Shown piece after piece: positions 31,123 to 62,919 of a stretch of DNA of 64,000 nucleotides (its first letter is position 1; every line of letters begins with the position of its first letter). The position numbers were made by a program, and so were the translations under genes. Below the pieces are notes generated by a model. That model was not told where the DNA came from, did not search any database, and saw nothing but the letters and a program-made list of their open reading frames with translations. Source of the stretch: a bacterium (lineage in GTDB: Bacteria > SZUA-182 > DTGQ01); the NCBI GenBank assembly GCA_040755755.1, contig JBFLZW010000033.1:62001-126000 (forward strand). Direction: 5' to 3'.

Positions 31123-31125
31123 ACA

Positions 31126-33936: not shown

Positions 33937-33946
33937 CTAAGCTGCC
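33929..33946 (+). repeat. 9-bp tandem duplication that creates the TAG
   Basis: Two perfect copies of TAAGCTGCC (33929-33937, 33938-33946); on the coding strand, GGCAGCTTA twice. Removing one copy turns GCA GCT TAG GCA GCT TAT into GCA GCT TAT, restoring an open frame. Confidence 0.95.
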
Positions 33947-35850: not shown

Positions 35851-35893
35851 GTTACCTCAGCAGGTATGTTTTACCGCCCATACCCATAGTTCT

Positions 35894-36356: not shown

Positions 36357-36425
36357 AGGGTACTATCCTAATTCAAACACATTAAACCTCAATCAGACAA
36401 GGTTTACCGCATTACCGCACATATT

Positions 36426-37949: not shown

Positions 37950-37965
37950 CACCTGACCCTTTTTC

Positions 37966-38367: not shown

Positions 38368-38566
38368 CCTTCCTCCTCCCTTCCAGAAACTCATCGAGAG
38401 AGAAAGAAAGTTCCACCTTCCCCTCAAGTTCCAGCAATTTCCTGGCTTTTCTGCGCCGTATGAATTCCTCAAGGGCTATTTCTACAGCCTCTTTCTTGGT
38501 CCTGGCTCCAGACAGCTTCTTGGCCTCATTGAGCAGGTCTTCTTTTATAACAAGTGTCGTTCGCAT
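38351..38566 (-). CDS. vapB: VapB antitoxin
   Basis: A 71-residue antitoxin starting MRTTLVIKEDLLNEAKKLSG, then TKKEAVEIALEEFIRRRKARK, the ribbon-helix-helix pattern of type II VapB. The C-terminal acidic FSLDEFLEGRR segment should occupy the VapC active site. ATG 38566 was chosen over TTG 38578. Coupled to vapC by overlap. Confidence 0.92.
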   Translation of the reverse strand: MRTTLVIKEDLLNEAKKLSGARTKKEAVEIALEEFIRRRKARKLLELEGKVELSFSLDEFLEGRRKDVPHR

Positions 38567-38660
38567 TGGTGCCCCCAATATGCATATATATTAAGCATCA
38601 TATCAGATGCCATCGTGCATTTCAATTTTTTTGAAGGATTATCACATTCGATCCCGGGAA

Positions 38661-42980: not shown

Positions 42981-45900
42981 CTACCAGGAGAAACCGCTCA
43001 CGGTGCTATAGGTATAGATTGATGTCCAGGGGAAGCCCCCGCCGGTCCAGCCGGATTCTTGCCAGGTGGAGCCGGACCAGCCGGAGTAAGAGTAACTGGC
43101 CGGAGCTAGAGCGCTGCTTTCATAATACTGATAACCGCTGCCAAAAAGCCAGGGGGAACTGCTGAATGAATTGAGCGGACTGAAGGCTCCATATATTGTC
43201 CCAAAGGTGGAAGAGGTCCCGAAGGTAAACGCTGGCAGCGGGGAAGAGAACTGGGGCCAGTTCCCTCCGGAGAGGCTGGCGATCCAGGGAGAATATCCCC
43301 AGCCGGTTTGAGAAAATCCTCCGCCGGTTCCGCCGATACCTCCACCGGTGTCTGCTGCCGGTTGGGTTTGTGTGCCCGGCTGCTGGTTCTGGGGGGGGCT
43401 GGCGGTCGAGATAGTGTAGGTTTCTTTTCTGATATCCCCCTGGTTGCCATACGAATCGAGAGCGAAAACTTTCAGGGTGGTTGTGCCTGAAAAGAGCAGC
43501 GGCCCGGTATAGCAATTCGATCCGGTATTCGGGTCAGTGCCGTCGGTAGTGTAATAGATGGTGGCTGCTTCATCGGTGCTGAGGGCTATGGTTTGCGGGG
43601 AAGCAAACGAGCCGCCCACAGGAGAGACAGTGATTTCCGGGGGTCTGGTGTCAAGGGGGAATGGGGCGCTTTGGGCTTCAGCAAAGCCGTTTGCGGACTG
43701 CCCGTCATCAGCTTTGACTTTGATCCGGCAGGCGGCAAGCTCCTGACCCTCAAGCTCCTCGCCGGGCAGCCAGATGGCTGTCAGGTCTGCTCCCGTGGGT
43801 TGAGGGCCGGTTTCGGTTATCGCCCGGCTGTCTCTCCATCGGGATCCGTCCCAGTACTGGAACTGGATGTTTACCAGAGACTGTTCCTGATCGAGGCAGC
43901 GATAGGTTATGGCTATTGCCCCTTTTTCCTGCCGGCTGACTGATAGAATCTGCACCTGGGGCGGAGTATTGGTTGTAGCTTCGAATGTCATATCGATTGG
44001 ATCCGCCACACCGTAGGGAGGATTCGATGCCTTGACCGTATAGGAGCCCGCCGGTATTCTGGCCGGGACAACCGCCGTAATCTGCGTACCGGCAGCATTG
44101 ACCTCCGTGGTCCTGGCAGACCAGAAATGCGGCCTGCTCAGGATAGTCAGACCTGCCGATCCCGCAGCGCCCACAAGATACTCTTCGCTCAAAGACAGTC
44201 CCAGCACGTGGATCCGGTCAGGCAGCTCAACCCCGGTCATGAGAAAAGGATATCGGGGCCGGGTAAGGTCAATGACCTGCAGGCTGGAATAGCCGTCGGC
44301 TACATAGGCGCAGCCTCCCAAAACCGATACGCCCTCGGCATAGCCTGGCGTATCGCATCCAGCCGCCAGAGCAGGGCTTTGGGGCCGGGTGACATCAATG
44401 GCCACCAGACCGGTATACCCGGCAGCTATATAGACATAATTCCCCTGCCCGCAGATACCGTAAGCCCAGTCCGGTGTGGCCAGACTGCTTATCAGGGCTG
44501 GCTTGTCAGGCTGGCTGATATCGATGACCTGAAGACCTGCCCATTCATCGGCCACATAGGCCAGATTCCCTAAAACCCATACTCCGCGGGCATAGCCTGG
44601 AGTGTTGCAGCTCCCTTTCAGCACCGGTCTGTCGGGCTGGCCAAGATCGATGATCGAAAGACCGGAATATCCGGCAGCCACACAGGCATAATTTCCGGCC
44701 ATGCAGATTCCATAGGCACTCTCCACCAGGGGGCAATTTGCCTTTACCACCGGCTGATCGGGCTGGCTGAGATCGATGATGACCAGACCGGAGCTTCCGG
44801 CAGCCACATAAGCATAATTTCCCCGGGTGCATACCCCCAGGGCCTCGCCCTGCGGGATGGCGCACGCTCCCACCCTGACCGGAGGATCATCCCGGAAAAT
44901 GCCAAGCAGGGTGGATGCGGTAAGGTTTTCTCCATCCACGGTCAGCGTGGAAATCCCGTCGGCAGACCATCCGGGCCGGATGGATTTGATAACCGGCCTG
45001 ACCTGATCGTTACCGGCATCAAGAGCACAGGGGGAGAGCTCCCCCTGCGCGTTCCTGCACAGGGTCGGGTGGTTGGGATCAGGTCCGACCTCAAAGCTGT
45101 CAACCCATCCGTCCTGATCCGTGTCCGGGCTGGTGTGACTTGTCTTCAGGGTGAAATATTCCCGGCCATCGGAAAGCCCGTCATTATCGCTGTCAGGATC
45201 AAGGGCATCGATCAGGCCGTCGGTGTCGCTGTCCAGAGGCTGCTGAGCATTTTTGCCCCATTCCAGGCCGTCATCCAGGCCATCCCCGTCCGTGTCCTTC
45301 AGGCAGGGATCAGTGCCCCAGCGAAATTCAGCCAGGTTCCTGATTCCATCGCCGTCCGGATCACCGTAAGGGCCGTGGCTGGACTTGCTGCCTGATCCGG
45401 CACCGGCGTCGCAGGGATCGAGGCAGGAGTGGCTGTACTCATATCCATCCGGCAAACCGTCGCCATCCGAGTCGGAGCTATTGATCTTCAGGCAGCCTGA
45501 AGCCTCGGTCCGGTTCGTCAGACCGTCGCCATCCTCGTCAAGGTCAGGATCAAGGAATTTGATGGCAAGGCCTGCAAGGCCGCTGCCGGGGGAGGCAATC
45601 TCAAGCCCCATCCGTTCCGTATCCCTGACCACAAGATGCACCTCCTCGGCCCGGCTGTTGGTCAGGCTGATGATCACTTTTCCGGCAGCGGTTTCCACCA
45701 GGGCCTGGTTGCGGGCGCTGTTCAGCAGCAGCACCTTGCCGACCGCAGTATCCGGTCCAAAAACCGCCGCTCCATCGACCAACAGGGTAAATCTGACCGC
45801 CTCCTGATCGGCCATGCTGCCGTCCGGCTTCTGGACCTGGCAGGTAACGTTGATACTCGATCCCGGCCATGCCGGGCCGGGAGCCTGGATAACGACTTTT

Positions 45901-48900
45901 TTGGACATCCGGTAATTTTCCACCCTGATCGGCTCCTGATTGCCGAAGCTGTCCACGGCGAAGAATTTCAGGCTCAGCGTGTTCTCAATAGCTATCGGCC
46001 CGCCGCTGAAGCGGGGTGATGAGATCGTGGGATTGGATCCATCGGTGGTGTAGTATATGGCGGCCACTGCCGAATCATCGCTTGCAGTCAGGGTAACGGC
46101 TGTCCGGCTGGCATAGACGCCCCCGGCCGGGGTGGCCGAAGACTTTGGCGGGGCAGTATCGAGGGCAAAGGGCTGGCTTTCTCCTTCGGCCAGATGATCA
46201 ACCGCCTGCCCGTCATCTGCCGTGACCTTGATCCGGCATTGGGGGTAGAACCGGCCTGCAACATCCTCCCTGGCCTTCCAGGTGGCGGACAGCGGCAGTC
46301 CGGCCTGCTGCCTTCCCGCCGTGCTCACGCTGCTGCACGGACGCCATTCGGAGCCATCCCAATACTGAAAGGAGATGGTCAGTGAGGTCTGCTCGGTATC
46401 GAGGCAGCGGCAGTGAATAGCCACCAGGCCATCCGGCTGCTGCTGTGCCGATACATCCAGAACCTGCGGACGGGTATTGCTGTTGGCGATGGAAAAGGAA
46501 GCTTCGGAGACGGCCTGGGAGATGGTTTTCCTCACTCCCTGGTCATCGGCCCTGCAGGTCACCCTGACCAGATAATCATCCCCGTCCGCCATCCGGCTGG
46601 TATCCCAATCGTACTGCCCGTCATTTTTCTCGCCGGTTGCTATGGGTTTCCAGGTTTTTCCCCGGTCAGGGCTATAGTCGAGATCTATGGATACCGCCTC
46701 CGGACTGGCGCTGCCCTGATCAGCCAGCCATTGGATCCGGACCGTCTGTTTGAATATCTCCCCGCCCTGGGGATACAGGATGCGGATCAGGGGATTATCG
46801 GTGGTCATTTCAAAGGCGCTGCTCAGCCAGGTGGACAGGCTGCTGCTCCGGGTGGCCCTGACAGTATAAAAACCCTGCGGCAGACCGGCAGGAATGGTTA
46901 CCTGGGCCTGCCCTCCTCCGGAGCTTATCCGCTCGATCCGGGTGAGCCAGAAAATCGGGCGCGAGAGTGTCTGAAGACCGGATGCTCCTGAAGCGAGATA
47001 AATGCGCTCCTGGTCGAGGCAGAGGCCCGCGGCCTGGCCGGTCAGGTTCGGGCCGAGGTGGGCTATCGGCAGCGGCTGTCCGGGGTTTTTGACATCGACG
47101 ACCGCGAGGCCGGAGGCCTTATCAGCCACATAGGCATAGCCTTCGAGCACAAAGACTCCCTGTGCAGAGCCCTCGGTATTATATTCTCCAGCAAAGACCG
47201 GCTGCTCGGGGTTTTTGATATCGGCGATCTGAAGGCCGGAATCACCATCGGCTATATAGGCATAGCTGCCTGCAATAAAGACCCCGTGAGCGGAGCCCGG
47301 AGTATTATAAACCCCGGTCAGTTTCGGCTGGCCGGGATGGGTGATATCGATGACCGCAAGGCCGGAATCGCCATCGGCCACATAGGCATGGCTGCCTGCA
47401 ACAAAGACCCCCTGGGCAATGCCCGAAGTGTCACAGCTTCCGACAACCTGGGGCTGGTCGGGATGGGTGATATCGATGACCGCAAGGCCGGAATCACCGT
47501 CAGCCACATAGGCATGGTCAGCGGTGATAAACACTTGAGCGGCCTGGCCGGGTGTGTCGCAGGCCCCTTTCAGCACGGGTTTTACCGGCTGGCTGATATC
47601 GATGATCGCAAGACCGCAATCACCGTCCGCCAGATAGAGATAATTGCCCAAAGCCCGGACTCCCTGCGTCCGGCCCGAAGTCTCCAGGCTTGCAGCCTGA
47701 GTTGGCTGGCCGTTATTATCGAAACCTATAACCTGGAGACCGGAATCACCGTCAGCCACATACGCATAACCCTTATGAACAAAGGCTTCATAAGCCCAGC
47801 CCGGAGTATCGTAATTCCTGGGCAGGACAGGGCTGTCGAGATGCGTGATATTGACCATCCGGAGCCCGGAACCGCCATCGGCCAGATAGGCGAAGTTAGC
47901 CAGGACAACGACCCCATAGGGGGAGCCTGGCGTGCGGCACAATGCCTTCAAGGTTGGCCTGGCCGGATTATTGGCATCAATAACCTGGAGGCCGGAATTG
48001 CCGTCAGCCACAAAAGCCATGTTCTCCCGGACAAACACCCCGCAGGCCCAGCCGGAGCCGCTTCGATACCCGTAGCTGCCCCTGAGCACGGGCTTTGCGG
48101 GCTGGCTGATATCAACAATCTGAAGCCCGCATCCGCCATCGGCTATATAAGCGCAGGCACCTGAGACAAAGACCCCCAGGGCATTGCCGGGAGTATCGAA
48201 AGCTCCCGCAAGGACAGGCCGTGCAGGCTGGCTGATATTGATGATCTGAAGGCCGGAATCACCGTCAGCCACATATGCATAATCCGAGGTCACGAAAACG
48301 CCGTGAGCCGAGCCGGGGGTATCGCAGCTTCCTCTGAGGGCTGGCCGGGCAGGCTGGCTGATATCGATGATCTGAAGGCCGCAGCGGTCGTCAGCCACAT
48401 AAGCACAGGTTCCCCGCACAAAGACTCCGTAGGCATAGCCGGGAGTGTCATAGCTCCCCGTCAAAGCGGGCGCATCGGGCCGGCTGATATCGATGACCTG
48501 AAGGCCGGAATATCCATCGGCTATATAGGCAAAGTTACTCTGAACCTGCACCCCGCTGGCCCAGCCCGGAGTGTCGTAGCTTCCCCGGATGGCTGGCTGG
48601 TCAGGCTGGCTGATATCGATAATCTGAAGGCCCAGGGTATCGTCAGCCACGTAAACATAATCCCCCTGAGCATGCACGCCCTGCGCCCATCCCGTAACCC
48701 GGCAGCTTTTGCCCGGCAGAGGATCCTCTTCGTAAATGCTGATTTTGGTATCTATGGTCAGATTTTCTCCAAGGATGGATATCGGAGTGGCAGTATTGGT
48801 ATAGCCCAAAGCCGGAGTTATCGATCTGATGACTGGCGCATCCCCTTCCTGCTGAGCCCAGACCGGAGGCAGAGCCCGCACCATGAGGAAGGGAACAAGG

Positions 48901-48983
48901 AAAATACTCATAAAAATCATGCCTGCAAGAAAATCATGACAGCGGGTAACCCGGTAAATGATACCTCTCATAACCTTATGCAT
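42981..48983 (-). CDS. Giant secreted LVIVD-propeller / TIG / thrombospondin-type-3 protein
   Basis: A 2000-residue exported protein (signal peptide to about VWAQ, residue 44). A TIG start (PVIRSITPALGY...ISILGENLT) is followed by about 14 LVIVD repeats (consensus YAYVADGDSGLQVIDIS) and then the TIG end (VTIPAGLPQGFYTV). Next come an Ig-like part, a chitobiase-C-like domain (IYYTTDGSNPT), and Ca-binding thrombospondin-3 repeats (DSDGDGLPDG, DTDGDGLDDG). A second TIG-nested block has about 6 LVIVD repeats, followed by a second chitobiase-C-like domain. The last 130 residues are Gly/Ser/Trp/Tyr-rich. Probably a cell-surface adhesin or scaffold. AAGGAG lies 10 bases before the ATG. Confidence 0.88.
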   Translation of the reverse strand: MHKVMRGIIYRVTRCHDFLAGMIFMSIFLVPFLMVRALPPVWAQQEGDAPVIRSITPALGYTNTATPISILGENLTIDTKISIYEEDPLPGKSCRVTGWAQGVHAQGDYVYVADDTLGLQIIDISQPDQPAIRGSYDTPGWASGVQVQSNFAYIADGYSGLQVIDISRPDAPALTGSYDTPGYAYGVFVRGTCAYVADDRCGLQIIDISQPARPALRGSCDTPGSAHGVFVTSDYAYVADGDSGLQIINISQPARPVLAGAFDTPGNALGVFVSGACAYIADGGCGLQIVDISQPAKPVLRGSYGYRSGSGWACGVFVRENMAFVADGNSGLQVIDANNPARPTLKALCRTPGSPYGVVVLANFAYLADGGSGLRMVNITHLDSPVLPRNYDTPGWAYEAFVHKGYAYVADGDSGLQVIGFDNNGQPTQAASLETSGRTQGVRALGNYLYLADGDCGLAIIDISQPVKPVLKGACDTPGQAAQVFITADHAYVADGDSGLAVIDITHPDQPQVVGSCDTSGIAQGVFVAGSHAYVADGDSGLAVIDITHPGQPKLTGVYNTPGSAHGVFIAGSYAYIADGDSGLQIADIKNPEQPVFAGEYNTEGSAQGVFVLEGYAYVADKASGLAVVDVKNPGQPLPIAHLGPNLTGQAAGLCLDQERIYLASGASGLQTLSRPIFWLTRIERISSGGGQAQVTIPAGLPQGFYTVRATRSSSLSTWLSSAFEMTTDNPLIRILYPQGGEIFKQTVRIQWLADQGSASPEAVSIDLDYSPDRGKTWKPIATGEKNDGQYDWDTSRMADGDDYLVRVTCRADDQGVRKTISQAVSEASFSIANSNTRPQVLDVSAQQQPDGLVAIHCRCLDTEQTSLTISFQYWDGSEWRPCSSVSTAGRQQAGLPLSATWKAREDVAGRFYPQCRIKVTADDGQAVDHLAEGESQPFALDTAPPKSSATPAGGVYASRTAVTLTASDDSAVAAIYYTTDGSNPTISSPRFSGGPIAIENTLSLKFFAVDSFGNQEPIRVENYRMSKKVVIQAPGPAWPGSSINVTCQVQKPDGSMADQEAVRFTLLVDGAAVFGPDTAVGKVLLLNSARNQALVETAAGKVIISLTNSRAEEVHLVVRDTERMGLEIASPGSGLAGLAIKFLDPDLDEDGDGLTNRTEASGCLKINSSDSDGDGLPDGYEYSHSCLDPCDAGAGSGSKSSHGPYGDPDGDGIRNLAEFRWGTDPCLKDTDGDGLDDGLEWGKNAQQPLDSDTDGLIDALDPDSDNDGLSDGREYFTLKTSHTSPDTDQDGWVDSFEVGPDPNHPTLCRNAQGELSPCALDAGNDQVRPVIKSIRPGWSADGISTLTVDGENLTASTLLGIFRDDPPVRVGACAIPQGEALGVCTRGNYAYVAAGSSGLVIIDLSQPDQPVVKANCPLVESAYGICMAGNYACVAAGYSGLSIIDLGQPDRPVLKGSCNTPGYARGVWVLGNLAYVADEWAGLQVIDISQPDKPALISSLATPDWAYGICGQGNYVYIAAGYTGLVAIDVTRPQSPALAAGCDTPGYAEGVSVLGGCAYVADGYSSLQVIDLTRPRYPFLMTGVELPDRIHVLGLSLSEEYLVGAAGSAGLTILSRPHFWSARTTEVNAAGTQITAVVPARIPAGSYTVKASNPPYGVADPIDMTFEATTNTPPQVQILSVSRQEKGAIAITYRCLDQEQSLVNIQFQYWDGSRWRDSRAITETGPQPTGADLTAIWLPGEELEGQELAACRIKVKADDGQSANGFAEAQSAPFPLDTRPPEITVSPVGGSFASPQTIALSTDEAATIYYTTDGTDPNTGSNCYTGPLLFSGTTTLKVFALDSYGNQGDIRKETYTISTASPPQNQQPGTQTQPAADTGGGIGGTGGGFSQTGWGYSPWIASLSGGNWPQFSSPLPAFTFGTSSTFGTIYGAFSPLNSFSSSPWLFGSGYQYYESSALAPASYSYSGWSGSTWQESGWTGGGFPWTSIYTYSTVSGFSW

Positions 48984-50029: not shown

Positions 50030-50467
50030 ACTTGAAAATTTGCAGGCCGCTTGATGCAGGCCGCTTGTGCCTACCTGATATCTGTAGTTCACTCAAGTGA
50101 AAATCCCTAAAAGGAAAAGAGGAAGAGGGGGATGAGCAGCAGCATAGCCGTAATCCCCCCCAATCCTGCCGCGTCTTAATTAGATACTGAAAAATAATTA
50201 AATACCCATATCCTGCTTTTGCAGGAGCATGGCTATTTTTTACCCAAGACATAACGATCATTCCAGGGCAGGGGGAGGGGAGCGGGGGATGCTCGATGAT
50301 CATGCAGGGCTTGAGGCCGCAGGGAAGGAGGGTATAAATTTGATTTAAGCCAGGATGAAGTTTCAAGATATAACTATCCATAAGAAATAAATCTCAGGAT
50401 TGAGTGGTTACTACTATCGTGTATCATGTTTTTCATGAGACCTGATTACAGAATGGAGGTAAGGTCA
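50030..50467 (+). promoter_or_regulatory. Leader of paralogue 1
   Basis: The last 147 bases (about 50321-50467) closely match the leader of paralogue 2 (about 56007-56148), including the GGAGGTAAGGTC ribosome-site region. No riboswitch core was recognised. The start of the segment is unassigned sequence. Confidence 0.5.
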
Positions 50468-53400
50468 ATGAGTACGTATGAATCCGAGGACTTTGTACGT
50501 TTTTCCCTGAGAACCGCCGCTTGCCGGTTAGGCTGCATTTGGTTGATGGTCGTGCTGATCATCATGGGACGTAGCCTCGCTCAAGCTGGAAGCCTGACCG
50601 CAAGCGCAGCCACAGGTGCAATCCAGGGGCAGATTATTGATCAGAGTGGTCGGCCTCTGGCCAATATTCAGGTTCTGGCCGTGAAGCAGCCGGATACCGC
50701 TTCCATTTACGGGTATTACGGATATACCCCTTTCCCTTATGATCTGAGCGCCTTTCCCCCCTGGATGCCTGAAGAATTAAGCAATGATCCTGATCCCTAC
50801 CTGTATCCGTATGGTCCATACAGCCCCTATGGCCCTGCCGCTGATTCATCACCCCCCCAGGTTTACAGGACAGTGAGCAAGGCGGATGGAACCTTTCTCC
50901 TCGGCAGTCTGCCGGAAGGAAGGTACCGGCTCTGGGCCTACGATCTCAAGGACCAGGGATATGCGCCTTCGATCTATGGGCTTGATGCCCCTCAGTCAGC
51001 GGGCAGCCTGCTCTATGCTTATCCATCCTTCACTTCCGCCATTCAGATCCGGGTGCATACCGGGCAAACCGCCGGGCCTTTTACCCTGTCCATGACTCCG
51101 GGAGGGAAGCTGTCCGGGAAGGTTATCGATGCAGCCACCGGCCTGCCGATCAGCGGGGCACGGGTCCAGACATCGAGTCAGTATAATTATCCTGCCTTTC
51201 TCGTCCTTTCCGATTCCAGCGGGAATTTCTCTTTCCCCGCTCTGCCGGAGGGGGAATACTGGCTGAGCGCAATGGCCGAAGGATACACCAGCGGATATAG
51301 CGGCTACATCCTTCAGGAAGACCAGTATCAGGTATCAGCCGGTCAGACAACAGGAGGCTGCAACCTGAGCTTGAAGCGCGGCGGGACGGTTTCCGGTAAG
51401 ATCACCAGCCAGGCAGATGGGAAACCGGTTGCCGGTGCCGAAGTCACCTGCTTCATGACCGGAGACAATCCGGCTTATGTTATATCCTCTCCGGCTGTCA
51501 GCAAGGCTGATGGCACTTACCGCATCAGCGGCCTTGAGCCGGGCACCTATGTTCCCCTGGTCCAGTATGCCCCGGGCTTTCAGGGTGCCTATTGTCCGAA
51601 TACCCAGGACAGAGAGCAGGCCAGGGAGGTTCAGGTGGAATCGGGAAAGGAGACCGGCTCTGCCAATATCCAGCTTGCTCCCATTATCGGCAGGGGAATC
51701 ATCCGGGGACGGGTCATCGACAAGGCCAGCGGCCTTCCGGTGGCCGGAATTCAGGTCAGTCTGAGTAAATTTTATGATCCTTACGATTACGAAGCGTATC
51801 CTGTCATGCTCCCGGCCGCAGATGCCATGTCATTGTCATCCTATGCCCCATATGGAACAGTTTCCCATATCTCGCCTCTTTCCTGTCTGCCACCCGTGGA
51901 CTACCTCCGGATTAACCCGGTTCAGACCGATGAGCAGGGGAAATTTGCATTTACCGGCCTGGAAAACGGCAAATATGAATTGACCATGTATGATCCGCAG
52001 GGCAGGTATCTGAGTGGCCGCTATCCGGAATATCCCCTGGGTTACGGGGATGCTCTGGATTATCTTGAACTGTCCGAAAAGAAGACCTCTCTCGAAGGTA
52101 TCGAAATCTCCCTGAAGCGCGGGGGGCGTCTGGAAGGCAAGGTCCTTGCCGGGTCCACTCCCTTGGCCGGTATCTCTGTCAGAGCCACACCCGCAAATTT
52201 GGGATTCAAGGGAGCGTATAGTTACCCGGGTGTCTACTACGTCGGCAGCGGATCGGAAGACGTGACTGATACGGATGGAGAATTCATCATCCGCGGCCTG
52301 CCGGAAGACGACTATATCCTGGTGGCTGTGGATCAGACGGGAACCCGGAACTTCCTGGCCGCCTGGTGCCAGAACGCCGGGGAGGAAAAGCCCCGCACGT
52401 TCAAAGTAACCGAAGGCAGCACCACGGGCGGCATGGTAATCTCCATGAATCCGGGTGCCTCCATCAGCGGAAGGGTTGTGGACAAGGCCGGAAAACCCCT
52501 GGCCGGGATCGTAATGTCCGCAGACCTCGAACGCTATCCTGATTCCGATCCGGCCAGGCCGTGGAATTATTACGCCTTCCCGGTCAACAGGAGTGTCATG
52601 ACCGCTGAGGACGGGACTTACACCCTGGTCGGCCTGTCTGAAGGAACCTACGTTGTGAGGGCCTGGGACCAGAATCAGGAATACCTGGACGGCTGCCGAT
52701 CCGGCCTCGCCGTATCCCCTCCAGCCAGTCTGTCAGCGCCTGATATGGTCTTGACCAAAAGTTTGATTCTCTCCGGGAAAGTAACTTCCAGGGATGGCAA
52801 GCCCCTGGCTGAGATTATGGTTTCCGCTACCCTCGATGACTCTTCGGATCCGGCAGGCAGCAGCGGCAAGATGCCAATCCGCACTGCGGATCAGACAGTG
52901 TCCTCCGACTCCTGCACTGCTTATCCGAGGTATCAGTCGCAAGCCTATACCGGCAAGGACGGCACCTACCGGATAACCGGCCTTGCGGCTGGAATCTACC
53001 GGCTTGAAGCAGTTGATTATCGTAATGAATACTTATCAGCCCAATACGGCACAGGAACTTCGGCCGCACTCGTAGCCGGGGCAGAAGGCGAGGAGAAGAC
53101 CGGCCTTGACTTTTCCCTCGTGAAGGGCGGAATAATCAAGGGTACGGTCCTCGATCTGGCTGCCGGCAAGCCGGTTTCCGGAGCGATAGTTGCAGCCCAG
53201 CCGGAGTCTGGCTATTCGTACGGTGGCGGCCCATCTGATCTTCCTGCCATACTGCCGATCGACTATTATGGGATGAGTGCAACCTCCGGGATGTGGCCGG
53301 GGATGATTTACTCTTCAGCTTCCACTGACAATATGGGGAATTACACTCTGAAAGGGCTTCCGGATGGTAAATACCTGCTGTTTATTTCAACGCCCGATAA

Positions 53401-55429
53401 AAACTACCTGTCTCAGTATTATTCGGGTGCCGATAGTGAGAGCACAGCGACTCCGATCGAGATCAGGAGCGAGCAGGTTGTCGAGAATATCGATTTCAGC
53501 CTGGCTCCGGGCATCATCCTCAAAGGCGTGATCAGGGATGCCGCAACCGGCAAGCCCATAACCACAGGGTGTCTGGTCATATTAGCCACCGGGCAGGGAG
53601 CGGATCTCGATAGCGCCTACACCAATTCATCCGGGGAATATCAGTTCAAGGGACTTCAGCCGGGCACCTATCTGGTCAAGGCTGCTGACTGCCAGTATTA
53701 CTACGGCGGCTTTTATCGGCTGCCAGGTACTGATCCGAAGACATCCAGCCCGATCACCGTCTCCGCCCCCGGTCCGGTGGAAGAGATCGATATCCTGCTT
53801 CAGCTCAAAGCCTCGATCAGCGGACGGGTGGTGGATGAGCTCGATAAGACACCGCTGGCCAGGATAATAGTCACGGCCATTCCACGATCGGGAAAGCCTC
53901 ATGCCACCACCGATTACTATTCCTTTTCTCTATATGCATATTACTCCGCATATCAGGCAATCACCGATGCCGATGGCCGGTACACGATCAGGGGGCTGGA
54001 AGAAGGGGATTACCTGATTATGGCCCGTGATTCTGCACATGTCTATGGTCAGGAGTACTATAAAGATGTCCCTGTCAATCAGCCGGACAAAGCTACAGCC
54101 GTCCATGTGGGCTTCTCGGAAGCCAAAGGAGGTATCGACCTTGAGCTTCAGGTAGGGGAAACCTACAGCGGCGCAGCCGGCAACAGTCAATACCCGACAG
54201 CTACTTCCGCTTCCTATGGGTCTTCGGCAGCTCCCGGCCCGAATTACGGGTATTCTATATCTTACCTCCAGATGATCGGAAAATCCGGCCTGTATGGCGG
54301 CATTGCTGGCTATGGTGCCGGATATACCGGCTCGGATGCAGCCCGGCAGGCTCAATGGAATACACCTCAACCCGGAACAAACCAGTATCCGGCCCAGTAT
54401 CCGATTCTTCCGGAGCGGTTGACGAATGCGGAGCCTCCGGAGATCACTTCATCGAATTCCGTGGACAGGATCAAGGCAGGCCGCACCTTTCGGTATAAGG
54501 TTGAGGTTAAAAACCAGGCAGCCGATACTTCCCTCAAGCACAGCCTGCTGCTCGGACCGGAGGGCATGGATATCGATCCTGATACCGGTCTTGTCCAATG
54601 GACTCCGTCCAACAGCGATGCCGGATGGTGTATCGTTCAGGTAATGGTCGATAACGGCAACGGGCAGGTAGCCTCGCAATCCTTCCGCCTGCGGGTCGAG
54701 GAAGACAGGACCCCGCCGGAGGAAGTCAAAAACCTGACCGCGGTGAAAGGAGATGGACAAGTCATTCTTTCCTGGACACCTCCTTCGGACCGCGATGGCG
54801 ATCTGGCGGATCAGGTCCTGTATGTCAGGGAGGGACAGGAGTATGGCGCGGGGATCAATCTTGGGAAAGGTGCCTCCGGATATACGGTGAAGAATCTGAA
54901 GAATGATCAGCCCTATACTTTCAAGATTGTGACCAGAGACAACCTGGAGAATACCAGCAGCGGAGTGACCGTAGCCGCAACTCCCGCCAAGGAGCGGGTG
55001 GCCGACACCGGAGCTTCTCCGATATCATCCTGGTATTCGGGGCTTGCATCCAACAGCTATCTGTTCTCAGGAAATGCAGGCACAGCAGGCCTGTGGGGGA
55101 ACCCGCCATCCCTGACTTCTTCTTCGGTATACCCGGTCTGGCCTGGCAGTACATACACTGTGTGGGGAACAACCCTGGTTCAGTCTGACAGTCTGTTCGG
55201 CTCATCGAACCCCTGGTCATCTTCGTCCTGGTCATCGCCATCCTGGTCATCCTCACTCTGGACAGGCGGCAATTTGGCAGGTACATCCCTGTATTCCTCC
55301 TCCTTCTCGACGTTCAGTCCCTGGTGGAGCAATTCCCCGACAGGTTCCTGGGGAGGAAATTCCGGTTCTCTCTGGGATTCAGACAATCTGAATCTATGGG
55401 TCCGGGACCCGATGCAGCCACGGTGGTAG
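50468..55429 (+). CDS. Giant secreted carboxypeptidase-regulatory-like repeat protein, paralogue 1
   Basis: A 1653-residue surface protein. The signal peptide is near LGCIWLMVVLIIMGRSLAQA. About nine carboxypeptidase-regulatory-like (Cna-B-like) repeats follow, each with a G.V.D..TGKPISGA start and a DGTYRI.GL..GTY end, separated by Tyr/Pro-rich loops. A putative-Ig domain (PPEITSSNSVDRIKAGRTF, GMDIDPDTGLVQWTPS) and a fibronectin-III domain (PPEEVKNLTAVKGDGQVILSW) come next, then a Trp/Ser/Gly-rich tail of about 130 residues. The start ATG 50468 has GGAGGT 6 bases upstream; earlier in-frame starts are not supported. Tandem duplicate of the 56149 gene. Role: probably surface matrix or adhesion. 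Confidence 0.88.
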   Translation: MSTYESEDFVRFSLRTAACRLGCIWLMVVLIIMGRSLAQAGSLTASAATGAIQGQIIDQSGRPLANIQVLAVKQPDTASIYGYYGYTPFPYDLSAFPPWMPEELSNDPDPYLYPYGPYSPYGPAADSSPPQVYRTVSKADGTFLLGSLPEGRYRLWAYDLKDQGYAPSIYGLDAPQSAGSLLYAYPSFTSAIQIRVHTGQTAGPFTLSMTPGGKLSGKVIDAATGLPISGARVQTSSQYNYPAFLVLSDSSGNFSFPALPEGEYWLSAMAEGYTSGYSGYILQEDQYQVSAGQTTGGCNLSLKRGGTVSGKITSQADGKPVAGAEVTCFMTGDNPAYVISSPAVSKADGTYRISGLEPGTYVPLVQYAPGFQGAYCPNTQDREQAREVQVESGKETGSANIQLAPIIGRGIIRGRVIDKASGLPVAGIQVSLSKFYDPYDYEAYPVMLPAADAMSLSSYAPYGTVSHISPLSCLPPVDYLRINPVQTDEQGKFAFTGLENGKYELTMYDPQGRYLSGRYPEYPLGYGDALDYLELSEKKTSLEGIEISLKRGGRLEGKVLAGSTPLAGISVRATPANLGFKGAYSYPGVYYVGSGSEDVTDTDGEFIIRGLPEDDYILVAVDQTGTRNFLAAWCQNAGEEKPRTFKVTEGSTTGGMVISMNPGASISGRVVDKAGKPLAGIVMSADLERYPDSDPARPWNYYAFPVNRSVMTAEDGTYTLVGLSEGTYVVRAWDQNQEYLDGCRSGLAVSPPASLSAPDMVLTKSLILSGKVTSRDGKPLAEIMVSATLDDSSDPAGSSGKMPIRTADQTVSSDSCTAYPRYQSQAYTGKDGTYRITGLAAGIYRLEAVDYRNEYLSAQYGTGTSAALVAGAEGEEKTGLDFSLVKGGIIKGTVLDLAAGKPVSGAIVAAQPESGYSYGGGPSDLPAILPIDYYGMSATSGMWPGMIYSSASTDNMGNYTLKGLPDGKYLLFISTPDKNYLSQYYSGADSESTATPIEIRSEQVVENIDFSLAPGIILKGVIRDAATGKPITTGCLVILATGQGADLDSAYTNSSGEYQFKGLQPGTYLVKAADCQYYYGGFYRLPGTDPKTSSPITVSAPGPVEEIDILLQLKASISGRVVDELDKTPLARIIVTAIPRSGKPHATTDYYSFSLYAYYSAYQAITDADGRYTIRGLEEGDYLIMARDSAHVYGQEYYKDVPVNQPDKATAVHVGFSEAKGGIDLELQVGETYSGAAGNSQYPTATSASYGSSAAPGPNYGYSISYLQMIGKSGLYGGIAGYGAGYTGSDAARQAQWNTPQPGTNQYPAQYPILPERLTNAEPPEITSSNSVDRIKAGRTFRYKVEVKNQAADTSLKHSLLLGPEGMDIDPDTGLVQWTPSNSDAGWCIVQVMVDNGNGQVASQSFRLRVEEDRTPPEEVKNLTAVKGDGQVILSWTPPSDRDGDLADQVLYVREGQEYGAGINLGKGASGYTVKNLKNDQPYTFKIVTRDNLENTSSGVTVAATPAKERVADTGASPISSWYSGLASNSYLFSGNAGTAGLWGNPPSLTSSSVYPVWPGSTYTVWGTTLVQSDSLFGSSNPWSSSSWSSPSWSSSLWTGGNLAGTSLYSSSFSTFSPWWSNSPTGSWGGNSGSLWDSDNLNLWVRDPMQPRW

Positions 55430-55512: not shown

Positions 55513-56148
55513 GAGGCATATTCCCTGGTAATAATAGCTCGATAATGTTAAATCAGCCAGATTCCCGTGATCATACTGAACTACCTGATAATGGAGGCAC
55601 TTCTTTCCCCTCGCCAACCCGGGGGCGTCTCTTCTCCCTCGACCCAAGGGCAATATTATTACCTTATGGCAGCGATTTTCCCCCTCTCCCCTCCGGGTTT
55701 CAGGGGCGGACAGTTTTAATTTATCAGAGGCAGCCTCCTGTTGTTACTACCCCGGCATGCCGCACCCCAAGGAAAGCGGTGTCGTGCCACCGCAGTCCAA
55801 AGCGGCTGCCGCCGCAGTTGACGATAATTAGCCGCGTATTTAAGAAGACCTGCATTGAGTGCAAACTTAGCTTCTGTAAGTGCCATTCCGGATAGACGTG
55901 GTTATTTTTATACAGAAGTCATAGCGATCATACCAAAACAAAAGCAGGGGATGATCAATAATCAGGCAGGGCTTTTGGCCCGGCACCAGGCATGGCTTTT
56001 GACCGCAGGCAAAGGAGGGTATGAATCTTGCTTAAATCAGGATGAGGTTTAAAAGTTTAATCTACCCATAAGTATTAATCTCAGGATTAAGTGGTTATTA
56101 CACTATCATGTTTTCATTAGACCTGGTTGCAGAATGGAGGTAAGGTCG
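55513..56148 (+). promoter_or_regulatory. Leader of paralogue 2 with blocks A, B and C, copy 2
   Basis: Block A 55771-55815, block B 55865-55888 and the promoter-proximal block about 56007-56148 match the leader of paralogue 1, but without the IS4 fragment. The gene duplication therefore included several hundred bases of upstream DNA. A C-rich stretch near 55680-55710 resembles the 30784 palindrome type. No gene seen. Confidence 0.6.
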
Positions 56149-59100
56149 ATGAGTATGTATGAATCCGAGGACTTTGTACGTTTTTCCCTGAGAACAGCCG
56201 CTCGACGGTTAGGCTGTATTTGGTTGATGGTCCTGCTGATCATCGTGGGACGTAGCCTCGCTCAAGCTGCCAGCCTGACCGCAAGCGCAGCCACAGGTGC
56301 AATCCAGGGGAAGATTACTGACCAGAGTGGTCAGCGTCTGACCAATATTCAGGTCCTGGCTGTGCAGCAGCAAAGCGGCACTGCCGCGTATACCCCTTTC
56401 CCCTATGATCTCGGTGCTTTCCCACCCTGGATGCCAGAAGAATTAAGTAACGATCCCGATCTCTATCTTTATCCATATCGCTCGTATGGTGCTCCCGGTT
56501 TGGAATACACTCCTCCTCAGGTTTACAAGACCCTGAGCGAGGCTGATGGAACCTTTCTCCTCGGCAGTCTGCCGGACGGAAGGTACCGGCTCTGGGCTTA
56601 TGATCCCCAGGGCCGGGGATTTGCGCCCGCAATATTTGGCCTTGATGCCGGTCAGGGAGGGGGCAGCCTGTCCTCTTATTCATACCCTGCTGCTTCCAGC
56701 ATCCTGATCAGGGTCCATGCCGGGCAAACTGCCGGGCCGATCTCCCTGACCATGACTTTGGGCGGGAAACTGTCCGGCCAGGTGACCGATGCAGCCACCG
56801 GCAAGCCGATCAGCGGTGCCCGGATCACGGCTTCGAGCCAGAATACCCCCCCCGGCTTTTGTACCCTCTCCGATTCCAGCGGAAAGTTTACCTTTCCCGG
56901 TCTGCCGGTGGGAACCTGCTTGCTGGATGCAGGGGCTGAAGGATATATCGGCAGCAGTACCCTATACAGCCCGTCGATGAGTAATTATTATAGCGTATCA
57001 GCCGGTCAGACAACAGGCGGCTGTACCATCACCCTGAGGCGCGGCGGGAGCGTGTCCGGTAAAATCACCAGCAAGGTTGATGGAAAGCCGGTTGCCAATG
57101 CCGAAGTTGTCTGCTTCAAGGGAACAAGTGGTTATTTCATGTCTACTCCGGCTGTCAGCAAAGCCGATGGCACTTACCGCATCAGCGGTCTTGAGCCGGG
57201 CACCTATATTCCCCTGGTTCAGTATGCTCCCGGCTTTAAGGGTGCCTACTATCCGAATACCCAGGACCAGGAGCAGGCCGGTGAAATCCAGGTGGAAGAG
57301 GGGAAGGAGACAGGCTCCGTCAATCTTCAGCTCACCCCCACAGGAGGCAAGGGAATCATCCGGGGACGGATCATCGATAAGACAAGCGGCCTTCCGGTGG
57401 CAGGAATTCAGGTCAACCTGAATAAATCCTATTACGATTCCGCCAATCCCATTCCGCTTCCGCTCCCGGTGGTGGACCCTGTCCCGTTCCCGGAGCCCGG
57501 AAAAGCGGTTATCATGAGAAACCGGGCTGATGCAGTGTCAGGTGCCGCGCCGGTTAATGCAGTCAGCAGCGCATCCGCTCCTCAGACGGGGTATGCCACC
57601 TCCGGAGCGGCAACCACAACTGCCGGTCCCGAGATTCTATCCAGCGGCATGGCAGTTACGGTCACCGCCTCCGATGAACCTGCAATATCACCATTATCAA
57701 GTACCTCCGCCCTTCTGGGTTACGCCGCACCCTATGGCATGGTATCATCACCCCTCGATTCCCCAGTCTCTTCCCGCTCCTATCTGCCCTCTCTGGACTA
57801 CCCGCGCTTCAAGCCGGTCCTGACCGATGAGCAGGGAAGATTTGAATTTACCGGCCTGGAAAACGGCAGCTATGAATTGAACATCTATGATATGAGCGGC
57901 AAATATCTTGGCACCCGGTATCCGGAATATCCCAGGGGCAACTGGTCAGAGTATACCCCGGATTACCTTGAGCTGTCTGCACAGCAGCCTTCCATCGAAG
58001 GGATTGAGATTGCCCTGCAAAAAGGAGGGACCCTTGAAGGCAAGGTCATGGCCGGGTCCACCCCGTTAGCCGGAATTTCTGTCAGCGTCATAAGCTCAGG
58101 CACCGGGTATAAGGGAGCGTATGGTTATCCCCTCTATGCCAGCAGCTATTATTACGGCGGCGGGTCACAGGATATGACCGATACGGATGGAGAATTCGTC
58201 ATCCGCGGCCTGGCGGAAGACGGGTATATGGTGCTGGCTGTGAGCCAGACAGGAACCCATAACTACCTGCCCACATTCTGCCTGGATCAGAATGCAGGGG
58301 AAGAAACGCCGCGTACGTTCAAAGTTACTCCAGGCAGCACCACCAGCGGCATCGTAATCACCATGAAGCCGGGTGCCTCCATCAGCGGCAGGGTTGTGGA
58401 CAAGGCCGGAAGACCCCTGGCCGGAATCATGATGTCCGCAGACCCTGAAGACTATTCTTCTTATAACCCGGAGAAATGGGGGGATAGTTATTACTATGCA
58501 TCCAGCACAAATGCCGTGACCGCGCAGGATGGAACTTATACCCTGGCCGGTCTGTCCAAAGGAACCTATATCCTGCGGGCCTGGGATCAGAATCAGAAAT
58601 ACCTGGACGGCTGTCAGTCAGGCTTTACCGTCTCTCCTCCGGACCAGGTTTCAGCGCCTGATATGATCCTGGCGAAGAGCCTGATTCTCTCCGGGAAGGT
58701 AACTTCCACAGACGGTACACCTCTGGCTGAGGTCATGGTTTGCGCTACCCTCGATTCCTCTCCGGCAGGCAGCAGCGGCAAGGAACCTGTCCGCACCGCG
58801 AATCAGCAGACCGGGGCCTACGACTCCTGCTCTGCTTATTCTTCTCCGAGGTACCAGGCACAAGGCTACACCGGCAAAGACGGCACCTATCAGATAACCG
58901 GCCTTATGACTGGAACCTACCGGCTTGAGGCTGTCGATCATACGAATGGATACCTGTCAGCCCAATATGGGACCGGTTCTTCGCCCGCGCTCGTAACCGG
59001 GGCAGAGGGCGAGGAGAAGACCGGCCTTGACTTTCGCCTCAGCCGGGGTGGAATAGTGAAGGGTAGGGTTTACGATCAGGCAACCGGTGAGCCGGTTTCC

Positions 59101-62100
59101 GGCCTGACGGTTATGGCCCGGTTGATGCCTTCAGGCGAATATTCCTATCCTGCTGAACAGACGGGCAGTGGCGGCGGATATACCGGATATGCCACCTATG
59201 GAACCTCGTATGTTTCTCCGGCAGGCGATAGCGGATACGGCTATGCTGTTCCAGAGATGACGCCTGAAGCATCGATGGTGCAACAAGAGCCGGATTCAGA
59301 TGACGGCCAGGGGAATCTCTACATTAAGGATTACCGGGCACAGGCAGGTGAAGAGGTAGAAATTCCGGTCGTCCTCCAGACAGGCTCACATGAGGTTTCC
59401 TCCCTTGGCTTTGAAGTTATCTATGATCCGGGTGCTCTGGAATACCTCGGCTTTGAGAAGTCAAAGTTGGCTTCTTCCCTGAGCATGTTCGATGCTTCCC
59501 TGCTCGATCACGGCAGGATCAGGATCGGCGGATATTCTTTCACCGGCTCTATCCCGGAAGGGGCAGATGATTTTCTGGTCCTGTTGAAATTCAGGGTTGG
59601 CGATGGGCTCCTGAACCAATGTTATCCTCTGGAGCTGGAAAACCTCATGGACGATCTGGCTGGTTTTGCCACAAGAAACGGATCTTTCTGTGCCGCCAGT
59701 GCCGAATCCTTCGGGAGTTATCCTGCTTCGATGATATCTGCCACACCCATACTTCCGGTTATACCTGGTGGCCCGGTAATCACACCTGGCGGTACAGTAA
59801 TCGCACCCACGGTAGTTAAGCCCATTGAGCCCCCCATCGTACCCACGACAGAGCCTCCATCCATATCACCGCTCCCACCGCCTCCTCCGGCGACGACCAG
59901 TATAATGCCGACCGACTATGGGCGGTATCCCGGCTATATACCGGGGCAGATTACTTATTATTACTCAACTCCCACTGACAGCCAGGGGAATTACACCCTG
60001 CAAGGGCTTCCGGCTGGTAAATACCTGCTGGTAATTTCAACAACTGAGAAAAATTATCTGGCTCAATACTATCCGGGTGTCAGCAGCGAGAGCGAAGCCA
60101 CCCCGATCGAGATCAGTGCCGACCAGGTTGTCGAGAATATCAACTTTAGCCTGGCTCCGGGCATTATCCTCAAGGGCGTAGTCAAGGATGCCGCAACCGG
60201 CAGACCGATAACCACAGGATGTTTGGTCAGATTAACCACCGGGCAGGGGTTGGATATCGGCAGGAACACCTCTACCAGTTCAACCGGGGAGTACCAGTTC
60301 AAGGGACTTCGTCCGGGTACCTGCCTGGTTCAGGCTACCGGCTGCCAGTATTATCATGACGGCTTTTATCGGCTGCCGGGTACTGATCCGAAGGCATCCA
60401 GCCCCGTCACCATCTCCGCCCCCGGTCCGGTGGAAGGGATCGATATCCTTGTCCAGCCCAAAGCCTCGATCAGCGGACGGGTAGTGGATGAGATCGACCA
60501 TCAGACACCATTGGCCAGGATACTGATTACGGCCATTCCATCGCTGTATTCAAATCTTTCCGCCAGATATTATTACGGGTATCAGGCAATCACCGATGCT
60601 GATGGCCGGTACACCATCAATGGCCTGGAAGAAGGGGATTACCTGATCATGGCCCGTGATCCTGCCCATGTCTACGGCCAGGAATATTACAAAGATGTCC
60701 CCGTCAATCAGCCGGACAAAGCCACAGCCGTTCATGTCGCCCGTTCGGAAGTCAGAGGAGGAATCGACCTTGAGCTTCAGGTAGGGGAAACCTATACCGG
60801 CACCGGCAGCAGTCAGAAGCAATCAACGAGCGGCGCATATTATGGAAGTTCTACGGTTCCAGGCTCGGTCTATGGTTACTCTAACTATTACCTCCAGGCA
60901 ACCGGAAGCTCTGACCTTTATGGCGGCCTGGCTGGCTATGGTGCCGGACTTGGCGGCCTGGATGCAGACCGGCAGGCGCAATGGTATGCGTCTCAAACCG
61001 CGACAGCTCAAAATCCGGCTCAGAGTCCGATCCCACCGGAACAGGCACCCAATACTCAGCCTCCGGAGATCACTTCATCAAATTCCGTGGACAGGGTCAA
61101 GGCAGGCCGCACCTTTACCTATAAGGTTGAGGTGAAAAGCTCAGCAGATAATACCCCCCTAAAGCACAGCCTGCTGCTGGGACCGGAGGGCATGGACATC
61201 GATCCTGATACCGGTCTGGTTCAATGGACTCCGTCCAACAAAGATGCCGGATCGTGCATTGTTCAGGTAATGGTCGATAACGGCAACGGGCAGGTAGCTT
61301 CGCAATCCTTCCGCCTGCGGGTCGAGGAAGACAAGACACCGCCTGAGGAAGTCAAAGGTCTGACTGCTGTGAAAGGAGATAGGAAGGTCATCCTTTCCTG
61401 GATACCCGCTGCGGACCGCGATGGCGATCTGGCAGATCAGATTCTGTATATCAGGGAAGGGCAGAAGGACAGTACGGTGATCAGCCTTGGAAAAAACACT
61501 TCCGGATATACCGTGGAGAATCTGAAGAATGATCAGCAGTATACCTTCAGGATTGCGACAGTGGACAAACTGGAGAATGCCAGCACCGGCGTGACCGTAA
61601 CCGCAACTCCCGGCAGGGAGCAGGCTGCCACTACGGTGGCTTCCCCGTGGTCATCCTGGTATACAGGGCTTACTGCAACGAATTACCTGTTCGCAGGAAA
61701 TACGGGCACAGCAGGTCTGTGGGGAACCCTGCCATCCCTGAATTTTTCTTCAGGATATTCGGTCTGGCCTGGCATCGGCATGTGGGGAACAACCTCACCT
61801 TCCTGGGCATCTTCTTCCTGGACATCTTCTTCATTGGTTCAGTCTAACAACCTTTTCGGTTCGTCGAACCTCTGGTCATCTTCGTCCGTGTCATCGCCAT
61901 TCTGGCCAGGCAACACAAGTGCTCTGGGACTGCTGCTGAATCTTTCGTCAGGTACATCCCTGAATTCCTCAGCGGCCAGTTCCTGGTTGACTAATTCCTC
62001 GACAGGCTCCTGGGGAGGAAATTCCGGAACGAGATATCTCTGGGGTTCAGATAACCAAGATTCGTGGACCCGGAACCTGCAATCATGGTATCTTTTATAC

Positions 62101-62103
62101 TAA
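56149..62103 (+). CDS. Giant secreted carboxypeptidase-regulatory-like repeat protein with cohesin-like insert, paralogue 2
   Basis: A 1984-residue paralogue of the 50468 protein with the same signal peptide, repeats, putative-Ig, fibronectin-III and Trp/Ser/Gly tail. It differs by two insertions. One is a Pro/Ser/Ala linker near residues 440-545. The other is a cohesin-like domain at about residues 1053-1185 (YRAQAGEEVEIPVVLQT, LGFEVIYDPGALEYLGFE, GRIRIGGYSFTG, FLVLLKFRVGDG), followed by a Pro-rich linker. Cohesins bind dockerins; no dockerin is visible in the window. The start ATG 56149 has GGAGGT 6 bases upstream. A strong terminator follows. Confidence 0.88.
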   Translation: MSMYESEDFVRFSLRTAARRLGCIWLMVLLIIVGRSLAQAASLTASAATGAIQGKITDQSGQRLTNIQVLAVQQQSGTAAYTPFPYDLGAFPPWMPEELSNDPDLYLYPYRSYGAPGLEYTPPQVYKTLSEADGTFLLGSLPDGRYRLWAYDPQGRGFAPAIFGLDAGQGGGSLSSYSYPAASSILIRVHAGQTAGPISLTMTLGGKLSGQVTDAATGKPISGARITASSQNTPPGFCTLSDSSGKFTFPGLPVGTCLLDAGAEGYIGSSTLYSPSMSNYYSVSAGQTTGGCTITLRRGGSVSGKITSKVDGKPVANAEVVCFKGTSGYFMSTPAVSKADGTYRISGLEPGTYIPLVQYAPGFKGAYYPNTQDQEQAGEIQVEEGKETGSVNLQLTPTGGKGIIRGRIIDKTSGLPVAGIQVNLNKSYYDSANPIPLPLPVVDPVPFPEPGKAVIMRNRADAVSGAAPVNAVSSASAPQTGYATSGAATTTAGPEILSSGMAVTVTASDEPAISPLSSTSALLGYAAPYGMVSSPLDSPVSSRSYLPSLDYPRFKPVLTDEQGRFEFTGLENGSYELNIYDMSGKYLGTRYPEYPRGNWSEYTPDYLELSAQQPSIEGIEIALQKGGTLEGKVMAGSTPLAGISVSVISSGTGYKGAYGYPLYASSYYYGGGSQDMTDTDGEFVIRGLAEDGYMVLAVSQTGTHNYLPTFCLDQNAGEETPRTFKVTPGSTTSGIVITMKPGASISGRVVDKAGRPLAGIMMSADPEDYSSYNPEKWGDSYYYASSTNAVTAQDGTYTLAGLSKGTYILRAWDQNQKYLDGCQSGFTVSPPDQVSAPDMILAKSLILSGKVTSTDGTPLAEVMVCATLDSSPAGSSGKEPVRTANQQTGAYDSCSAYSSPRYQAQGYTGKDGTYQITGLMTGTYRLEAVDHTNGYLSAQYGTGSSPALVTGAEGEEKTGLDFRLSRGGIVKGRVYDQATGEPVSGLTVMARLMPSGEYSYPAEQTGSGGGYTGYATYGTSYVSPAGDSGYGYAVPEMTPEASMVQQEPDSDDGQGNLYIKDYRAQAGEEVEIPVVLQTGSHEVSSLGFEVIYDPGALEYLGFEKSKLASSLSMFDASLLDHGRIRIGGYSFTGSIPEGADDFLVLLKFRVGDGLLNQCYPLELENLMDDLAGFATRNGSFCAASAESFGSYPASMISATPILPVIPGGPVITPGGTVIAPTVVKPIEPPIVPTTEPPSISPLPPPPPATTSIMPTDYGRYPGYIPGQITYYYSTPTDSQGNYTLQGLPAGKYLLVISTTEKNYLAQYYPGVSSESEATPIEISADQVVENINFSLAPGIILKGVVKDAATGRPITTGCLVRLTTGQGLDIGRNTSTSSTGEYQFKGLRPGTCLVQATGCQYYHDGFYRLPGTDPKASSPVTISAPGPVEGIDILVQPKASISGRVVDEIDHQTPLARILITAIPSLYSNLSARYYYGYQAITDADGRYTINGLEEGDYLIMARDPAHVYGQEYYKDVPVNQPDKATAVHVARSEVRGGIDLELQVGETYTGTGSSQKQSTSGAYYGSSTVPGSVYGYSNYYLQATGSSDLYGGLAGYGAGLGGLDADRQAQWYASQTATAQNPAQSPIPPEQAPNTQPPEITSSNSVDRVKAGRTFTYKVEVKSSADNTPLKHSLLLGPEGMDIDPDTGLVQWTPSNKDAGSCIVQVMVDNGNGQVASQSFRLRVEEDKTPPEEVKGLTAVKGDRKVILSWIPAADRDGDLADQILYIREGQKDSTVISLGKNTSGYTVENLKNDQQYTFRIATVDKLENASTGVTVTATPGREQAATTVASPWSSWYTGLTATNYLFAGNTGTAGLWGTLPSLNFSSGYSVWPGIGMWGTTSPSWASSSWTSSSLVQSNNLFGSSNLWSSSSVSSPFWPGNTSALGLLLNLSSGTSLNSSAASSWLTNSSTGSWGGNSGTRYLWGSDNQDSWTRNLQSWYLLY

Positions 62104-62168
62104 ATACTCAGTAGCGGTAAGTACTGACAGAGGGAATTAACCCGGCCAGTCAGTCATACTCTTACCAT

Positions 62169-62206
62169 GATAGGCGGGGCCTTTCAACCCCGCCTATCGA
62201 TTTTTT
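62169..62206 (+). terminator. Rho-independent terminator after paralogue 2
   Basis: GATAGGCGGGG (62169-62179) pairs perfectly with CCCCGCCTATC (62188-62198), followed by GA and six T's. Confidence 0.93.
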
Positions 62207-62250
62207 GTCTGGAAAAGGTAGAAGGCGATTCAGGTGATGAGGAAATGGGA

Positions 62251-62919
62251 ATGAGATGGCAAAGCAGGATTCAATCATGGTCCGGATTAATTCTTACGAA
62301 GTTGTCCCAGAGCTTGATTTCATCTGTACAGGCCGCCTGCTGCGAAGGTTTTGAGATATGCTCTCCGGCAGGCTGCCTCCTGTTGTTCACCCTGCTCATC
62401 CTGCTTCCCGTGAGCCGGATAGCGGAAGCATCCCACTTTCAGGAGGTAACACCTACACCGACCTGGATGTATCTTTCCGGGCTTTTTACCATTGACGGCC
62501 AGGATGCAGTTACCGGCGACGAGGTCGGTGTATTCGATGAACGGGGGCTCCTTGTAGGCCGCACTACCGTTACGGTCAGGGGAAGATATGGCGTGATGAA
62601 AGTCTATGGGGATGACCCCGCCACTTCCAGGCACGATGGAGCAATTATCAACAGCAAGCTGACCCTTAAATTCTGGAAGGCAAGCTCAAGGACTGAGACC
62701 ATCATTACCCGGGATGATATATCTTTAATAATCCGGGGACCTTTTGGCCCATCAGACTTTCCTCTGCGATGGACGGGGCACAGGGATAAGTATGTCGTCC
62801 ATGTAGCGGCAAAGGAGAAAGCAACTCATGTCCCCCTTCTTTCAGGGTGGGGAGGGATTGCAGCCGCAGCCTTTCTGCTTCTCGTCCTGACTGTGTATGT
62901 GGAGAGAAAGATCGGTTAG
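62251..62919 (+). CDS. Exported protein with IPTL-CTERM-like sorting tail
   Basis: A 222-residue protein with an N-terminal export segment (LLLFTLLILLPVSRIAEA). The middle holds a beta-rich domain, WMYLSGLFTIDGQDAVTGDEVGVFDERGLLVGRTTV, common in secreted proteins of unknown role. The C-terminus VPLLSGWGGIAAAAFLLLVLT followed by VYVERK has the layout of IPTL-CTERM sorting signals: a VPxLSxWG motif, a hydrophobic helix and a basic end. It is probably processed and anchored at the envelope. ATG 62251 has GAGGA 7 bases upstream; the earlier in-frame ATG at 62167 is inside the preceding terminator. It converges with the next gene fragment by 4 bp. Confidence 0.75.
   Translation: MRWQSRIQSWSGLILTKLSQSLISSVQAACCEGFEICSPAGCLLLFTLLILLPVSRIAEASHFQEVTPTPTWMYLSGLFTIDGQDAVTGDEVGVFDERGLLVGRTTVTVRGRYGVMKVYGDDPATSRHDGAIINSKLTLKFWKASSRTETIITRDDISLIIRGPFGPSDFPLRWTGHRDKYVVHVAAKEKATHVPLLSGWGGIAAAAFLLLVLTVYVERKIG

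Follow-up and report, generated by a model that had tools for sequence, protein, structure and literature searches.

A type-I-like cohesin in a loop of a tandem repeat protein, most likely lost from the neighbouring paralogue

Non-cellulosomal cohesin-dockerin systems are already known; Peer et al. 2009 reportedly dealt with such proteins in bacteria and archaea. ANME archaea have a non-cellulosomal cohesin-dockerin system in which a dockerin is reported to occur with up to five cohesins in one protein (PMC9012536). A second report attributes non-cellulosomal cohesin-dockerin proteins to the sulfate-reducing bacterial partners of ANME as well (PMC10553843). These systems comprise many cohesins and dockerins outside cellulose degradation, often with adhesion domains, and include proteins bearing both modules. 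A cellulosome-like complex is described for Ca. Stygibacter (Cloacimonadota), with a 3,755-residue scaffoldin of tandem cohesins and carbohydrate-binding modules (CBMs) and with dockerin-bearing glycoside hydrolases (PMC8542988). A literature search that combined cohesin, dockerin and "carboxypeptidase regulatory-like" matched a single paper, on Fibrobacter.

How does the present locus compare? We analysed a window of 64,000 nucleotides from a bacterial contig that holds two adjoining genes, P1 (1667 residues) and, downstream, P2 (1989 residues); the genome to which they belong is called G000. G000 shares with ANME and their partners the many cohesins and dockerins outside cellulose degradation, the frequent company of adhesion domains and the proteins bearing both modules. 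Set against those systems, P2 carries a lone cohesin nested in a loop of a transthyretin-like (TTR-like) repeat, has no dockerin, and belongs to a system with other clients. G000 resembles Ca. Stygibacter in having dockerin-bearing gingipain-like C25 peptidases (L142:357-4031 and L129:5205-8309, one with a dockerin and one with cohesin and dockerin), whereas the scaffoldin, CBMs and dockerin-bearing glycoside hydrolases of that organism (PMC8542988) were not seen in G000. The probable direction of change is the reverse of the one suggested by comparing the two copies with each other. The features are listed in Table 1.

Table 1. Features of the P1-P2 locus, in window coordinates
Feature	Coordinates	Strand	Basis or remark
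P2: TTR-like repeats with one putatively nested cohesin, Ig-like (He_PIG), fn3, aromatic-rich tail	56134..62103	+	
Cohesin core, P2 residues 1060-1187	59311..59694	+	Pfam PF00963, pLDDT 90.7, Foldseek/VIA cohesins
Upstream linker, P2 residues 996-1059, Gly/Tyr/Ser-rich then acidic	59119..59310	+	in G001 orthologue, fast-changing
Downstream Pro-rich linker, P2 residues 1188-1274	59695..59955	+	also in G001 orthologue
First part of putatively split TTR-like repeat, about P2 residues 966-995	59029..59118	+	alignment to P1
Second part of putatively split repeat, with CarboxypepD_reg match	59956..60162	+	Pfam
P1, tandem paralogue without cohesin	50426..55429	+	alignment, Pfam
P1 residues 923-961, loop at cohesin site	53192..53308	+	alignment to P2
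Second P2 insert, about residues 440-526	57451..57711	+	largely in G001 orthologue, absent from P1
P2 tail, last 100 residues: 14 F/W/Y, 4 D/E/K/R	61801..62100	+	
P1 tail, last 100 residues: 18 F/W/Y, 6 D/E/K/R	55127..55426	+	

P1 and P2 are tandem paralogues, as the original prediction held, with 70% identity over 1626 aligned residues. Pfam finds in both a run of CarboxypepD_reg (transthyretin-like) repeats and, after it, an Ig-like domain and an fn3 domain; in P2 the repeat profile (PF13620) reaches 248.5 bits over 11 stretches against a cut-off of 32.3, which places it among the repeat proteins. The prediction had further claimed a cohesin-like domain of about 130 residues at 59308-59703 (in frame, P2 residues 1059-1190), and all three motifs quoted in its favour, VEIPVVLQT and two more, are found in that segment. 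The span is correct, and the Pro-rich linker said to follow the domain is there.

Is the domain a genuine cohesin? Only P2 of the pair matches the Pfam Cohesin profile, with 28.1 bits in the full protein (residues 1063-1155) and 29.8 bits (E = 7.8e-7) in the segment alone, over the cut-off of 24.1; the profile search by which the prediction was to be checked thus bears it out. An AlphaFold2 model of the domain built from four sequences has a mean pLDDT of 90.7 and a pTM of 0.85, and its predicted fold is the cohesin beta-sandwich, with solved cohesins at the head of both lists of structure matches: 4ums (E 7.3e-11) and 2xdh from Archaeoglobus (4.4e-10) in a Foldseek search of the PDB, and 6kgd, with a Z of 18.6 over 132 residues, by VIA-align. 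The Z values are higher for type I cohesins (about 15-18) than for those of type II (about 11), and sequence identity to the type I structures is about 15-24%. When the segment was compared with PDB sequences by phmmer, plant LRR receptors came first and cohesins were matched weakly (4dh2, E = 0.015); with a profile of 14 cohesins from the two genomes of the genus, the 16 best PDB matches were all cohesins (E 4e-8 to 7e-4). The resemblance is above chance, and the domain is a true type-I-like cohesin. It shares the fold (Z 15-18) and a detectable profile similarity with the clostridial type I cohesins (4ums, 5nrk, 1ohz), but identity to them is about 20%, and neither a CBM-bearing scaffoldin nor cellulases are in evidence here. 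The cohesin of Archaeoglobus fulgidus (2xdh; Z 17.3, 24% identity) is likewise non-cellulosomal, but it is archaeal and stands in another protein context.

The cohesin has no counterpart in the P1-P2 alignment. Where P2 has residues 996-1274 (279 residues), P1 has a loop of 39, the short loop that had been predicted at this place. The sequences GGIVKGRVYDQATGEPVSG before the P2 insert and TDSQGNYTLQGLPAGKYLL after it are two parts of one repeat, the second of which is matched by Pfam in both paralogues, and ILPIDYYG in the P1 loop resembles SIMPTDYG at the end of the P2 linker. A model covering both the repeat and the insert (384 residues, from three sequences) has a mean pLDDT of 29.9, so that the case for nesting comes from the alignment and the Pfam matches, by which the cohesin and its linkers appear to split a single TTR-like repeat of P2.

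Does the cell contain partners for this cohesin? The original prediction had held that a genome devoid of dockerins would refute it; G000 has 29 dockerin and 25 cohesin matches, each above the cut-off. These are spread over 36 proteins, of which 15 have dockerin only, 14 have both modules (11 with one cohesin, three with two) and seven, P2 included, have cohesin only. The dockerin that lies closest is about 25 kb past the end of the window, still on this contig. In 23 of the 29 dockerins, proline stands at one fixed position in each of the two calcium loops, where Clostridium thermocellum dockerins have serine, and 28 of the 29 have at least four cysteines (L121, L124 and L131 are examples); from the fixed proline and the cysteines, most look like one binding class. 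Many also show PSCLD at the C-terminus. Pfam scans covered 28 of the 29 dockerin proteins, a 262-residue protein of L139 being left out, and these 28 include C25 peptidases, CotH kinases, beta-propellers, VWA, polysaccharide deacetylase and prismane/CO dehydrogenase families. No glycoside hydrolase family, and hence no dockerin-bearing cellulase, was found by Pfam in the 28 scanned. GH9 was absent from G000 and from a second genome of the same genus (G001), and the GH48 exoglucanase profile matched nothing in either of them, nor in any control genome. P2 itself has a single cohesin and, as far as Pfam shows, no CBM, and does not qualify as a cellulosome scaffoldin. The modules are common among the relatives: across eight genomes, from the same genus to the same class, seven have cohesins and seven have dockerins, and G001 is the richest (21 cohesins, 19 dockerins). 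Among the dockerin proteins, the prismane/CO dehydrogenase protein of the hybrid-cluster type (L143:2656-4965, C55) has a C-terminal dockerin and an N-terminus that looks twin-arginine-like by eye; a literature search found no paper on a hybrid cluster protein in which dockerin and cohesin also appear.

Possession of the fold need not entail binding. At the contact positions that are Asn and Asp in clostridial cohesins, P2 has Ser and Gly, as do many other cohesins of the genus, and the domain might therefore have kept its fold and lost its dockerin, serving as a spacer or binding another ligand. We regard this as unlikely, though not far-fetched, given the many dockerins in the genome and the purifying selection on the domain relative to its linkers. 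Between P2 and its G001 orthologue, dN/dS is 0.20 in the cohesin and 0.27 over the columns common to P1, P2 and G001; dN is 0.19 in the cohesin and 0.55 and 0.62 in the two linkers. Some function keeps the domain conserved. A tree built from 46 cohesins unites P2 with the G001 orthologue in a clade of 100/100 support, which falls within a group of 29 entries, mostly cohesins that stand beside a dockerin (support of this group only 88/92), and apart from an eight-member group in proteins without dockerin.

Was the cohesin gained by P2 or lost by P1? The original prediction chose gain by one of the two paralogues, and here the evidence points the other way. G001 has a single orthologue (L056/L150), the only high-scoring copy in its assembly, and it carries a cohesin at the same place, both linkers and an equivalent of P2's second insert; the two cohesins agree in 95 of 128 residues (74%). 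Over 1559 shared codons, dS is 0.53 between P1 and P2, 1.19 between P1 and G001, and 1.08 between P2 and G001; the P1-P2 value is the lowest in 11 of 12 windows along the gene and tied in the twelfth. With the outgroup G002, of the same family, 35 site patterns unite P1 with P2, 14 unite P2 with G001, and 12 unite P1 with G001. Since the distance between P1 and P2 is smaller than either distance to G001, the duplication would postdate the split within the genus. A gain by P2 after the duplication would accord with the absence of the cohesin from P1 and from the G002 orthologue, but it would require that the same type of cohesin was inserted twice, independently, at a single site, in a pair younger than the split from G001, and we consider it very improbable. 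As G001 has the cohesin and the paralogues are nearer to each other than to G001, the economical reading is that P1 most likely lost it. It seems that P1 was shortened on two occasions, losing the cohesin insert and the second insert.

One caveat attaches to this reading: gene conversion between P1 and P2, if nearly complete, could imitate the dS pattern. The duplication might then predate the genus, with P1 descending from a cohesin-less lineage, P2 and G001 sharing the gain, conversion later homogenizing the pair, and G001 losing its own P1. Gene conversion comes easily to tandem copies, and by protein identity P1 is slightly nearer to G001 than to P2 in four of 16 windows (each at most 100 columns long). 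Yet low dS extends over the entire gene, so conversion would have had to run nearly full length and spare only the inserts, and G001 has just one copy, although about 400 bases separate the start of its gene from a contig end and an upstream copy may lie unassembled. We think this course of events quite unlikely. Loss from P1 remains the preferred reading. Further back, the G002 orthologue without a cohesin implies either gain in the stem of the genus or loss in G002, and the cohesin-less form is possibly the older state. A search for relatives returned none among viral contigs and, among genome contigs, two loci only, both in assembly JAILZY01 (bacterium isolate HOT.CON.50).

What, then, would P2 do? 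The account that we consider probable as a whole is that P2 is a secreted multi-repeat protein whose single type-I-like cohesin, held out on flexible linkers, projects from a loop inside one transthyretin-like repeat. It would most likely bind dockerin-bearing proteins of the same cell, outside any cellulosome, and keep them in the extracellular layer, in a matrix or at the surface; the recruitment of a dockerin partner to the cell surface, which the original prediction suggested, may be part of this. The cohesin would already have been present in the ancestor of the genus; a later tandem duplication would have produced P1 and P2, after which P1 would have lost the cohesin together with most of the linkers and, separately, the second insert. 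P2 is most likely secreted, as its N-terminus has a stretch that by eye looks hydrophobic. Its Pfam and NCBIfam matches include no anchor of the sortase, S-layer or membrane type, and other anchors are possible. Directly downstream of P2, the C-terminus of a 250-residue ORF (62167-62919) combines VPLLSGWGG with a hydrophobic stretch and a basic end, resembling an IPTL-CTERM sorting signal; the ORF has no match in Pfam or NCBIfam. P1 and P2 form a natural experiment with and without a docking domain, in young duplicates that are still similar and in a genome with many dockerins. If binding is confirmed, comparing them would show what a cohesin contributes to a repeat protein of the surface type where no cellulose breakdown is involved.

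Both paralogues end in an aromatic-rich, charge-poor tail, as does the G001 orthologue (21 F/W/Y and 2 D/E/K/R in its last 100 residues). Similar tails occur in two further G000 proteins with cohesin only (C67 and C13) and in their G001 counterparts (C122 and C153). The tail is present in three of seven cohesin-only against none of 29 dockerin proteins of G000 (one-sided Fisher, 0.005) and in three of five cohesin-only proteins of G001 against none of its 12 cohesin proteins that also have a dockerin (0.015); the thresholds were set once the tails had been inspected, and G000 and G001 are not independent of each other. These data would fit a non-cellulosomal network anchored by P2 and the two dockerin-less cohesin proteins through a new kind of tail ending in an aromatic residue, in which proteins with both cohesin and dockerin would serve as links of a chain, while the clients would be peptidases, CotH-like proteins and redox proteins. 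Three orthologous pairs in two genomes agree with it, as do the examined dockerin-bearing proteins, which have no tail; we nevertheless hold it to be doubtful. Nine of 347 distinct ORF tails (spurious reading frames included) have at least 14 F/W/Y and at most eight D/E/K/R/H in the last 100 residues, and three of the nine (L060, L110 and L132) fall outside the pattern. The cohesin-less G002 orthologue has an aromatic tail with 29 aromatic and 10 charged residues, which exceeds the charge limit, and a 2000-residue LVIVD/beta-propeller protein that adjoins P1 on the minus strand (42981-48983) has one with 24 F/W/Y and two charged residues; from these two cases, the tail is not tied to cohesin. 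A similarity search of the genome with the P1 tail matched only P1 and P2, and one with the tail of the LVIVD protein returned nothing that links the tails, so the class is one of composition.

Elsewhere in the window, genes for DUF499, DUF1156 methyltransferase-like, AAA/DUF4143 and SNF2/NOV_C helicase proteins lie together at 27206-42332, perhaps as a defence island, and the CRISPR genes Cas_TM1802, Cas7 and Cas5 occupy the window start (49-3530).
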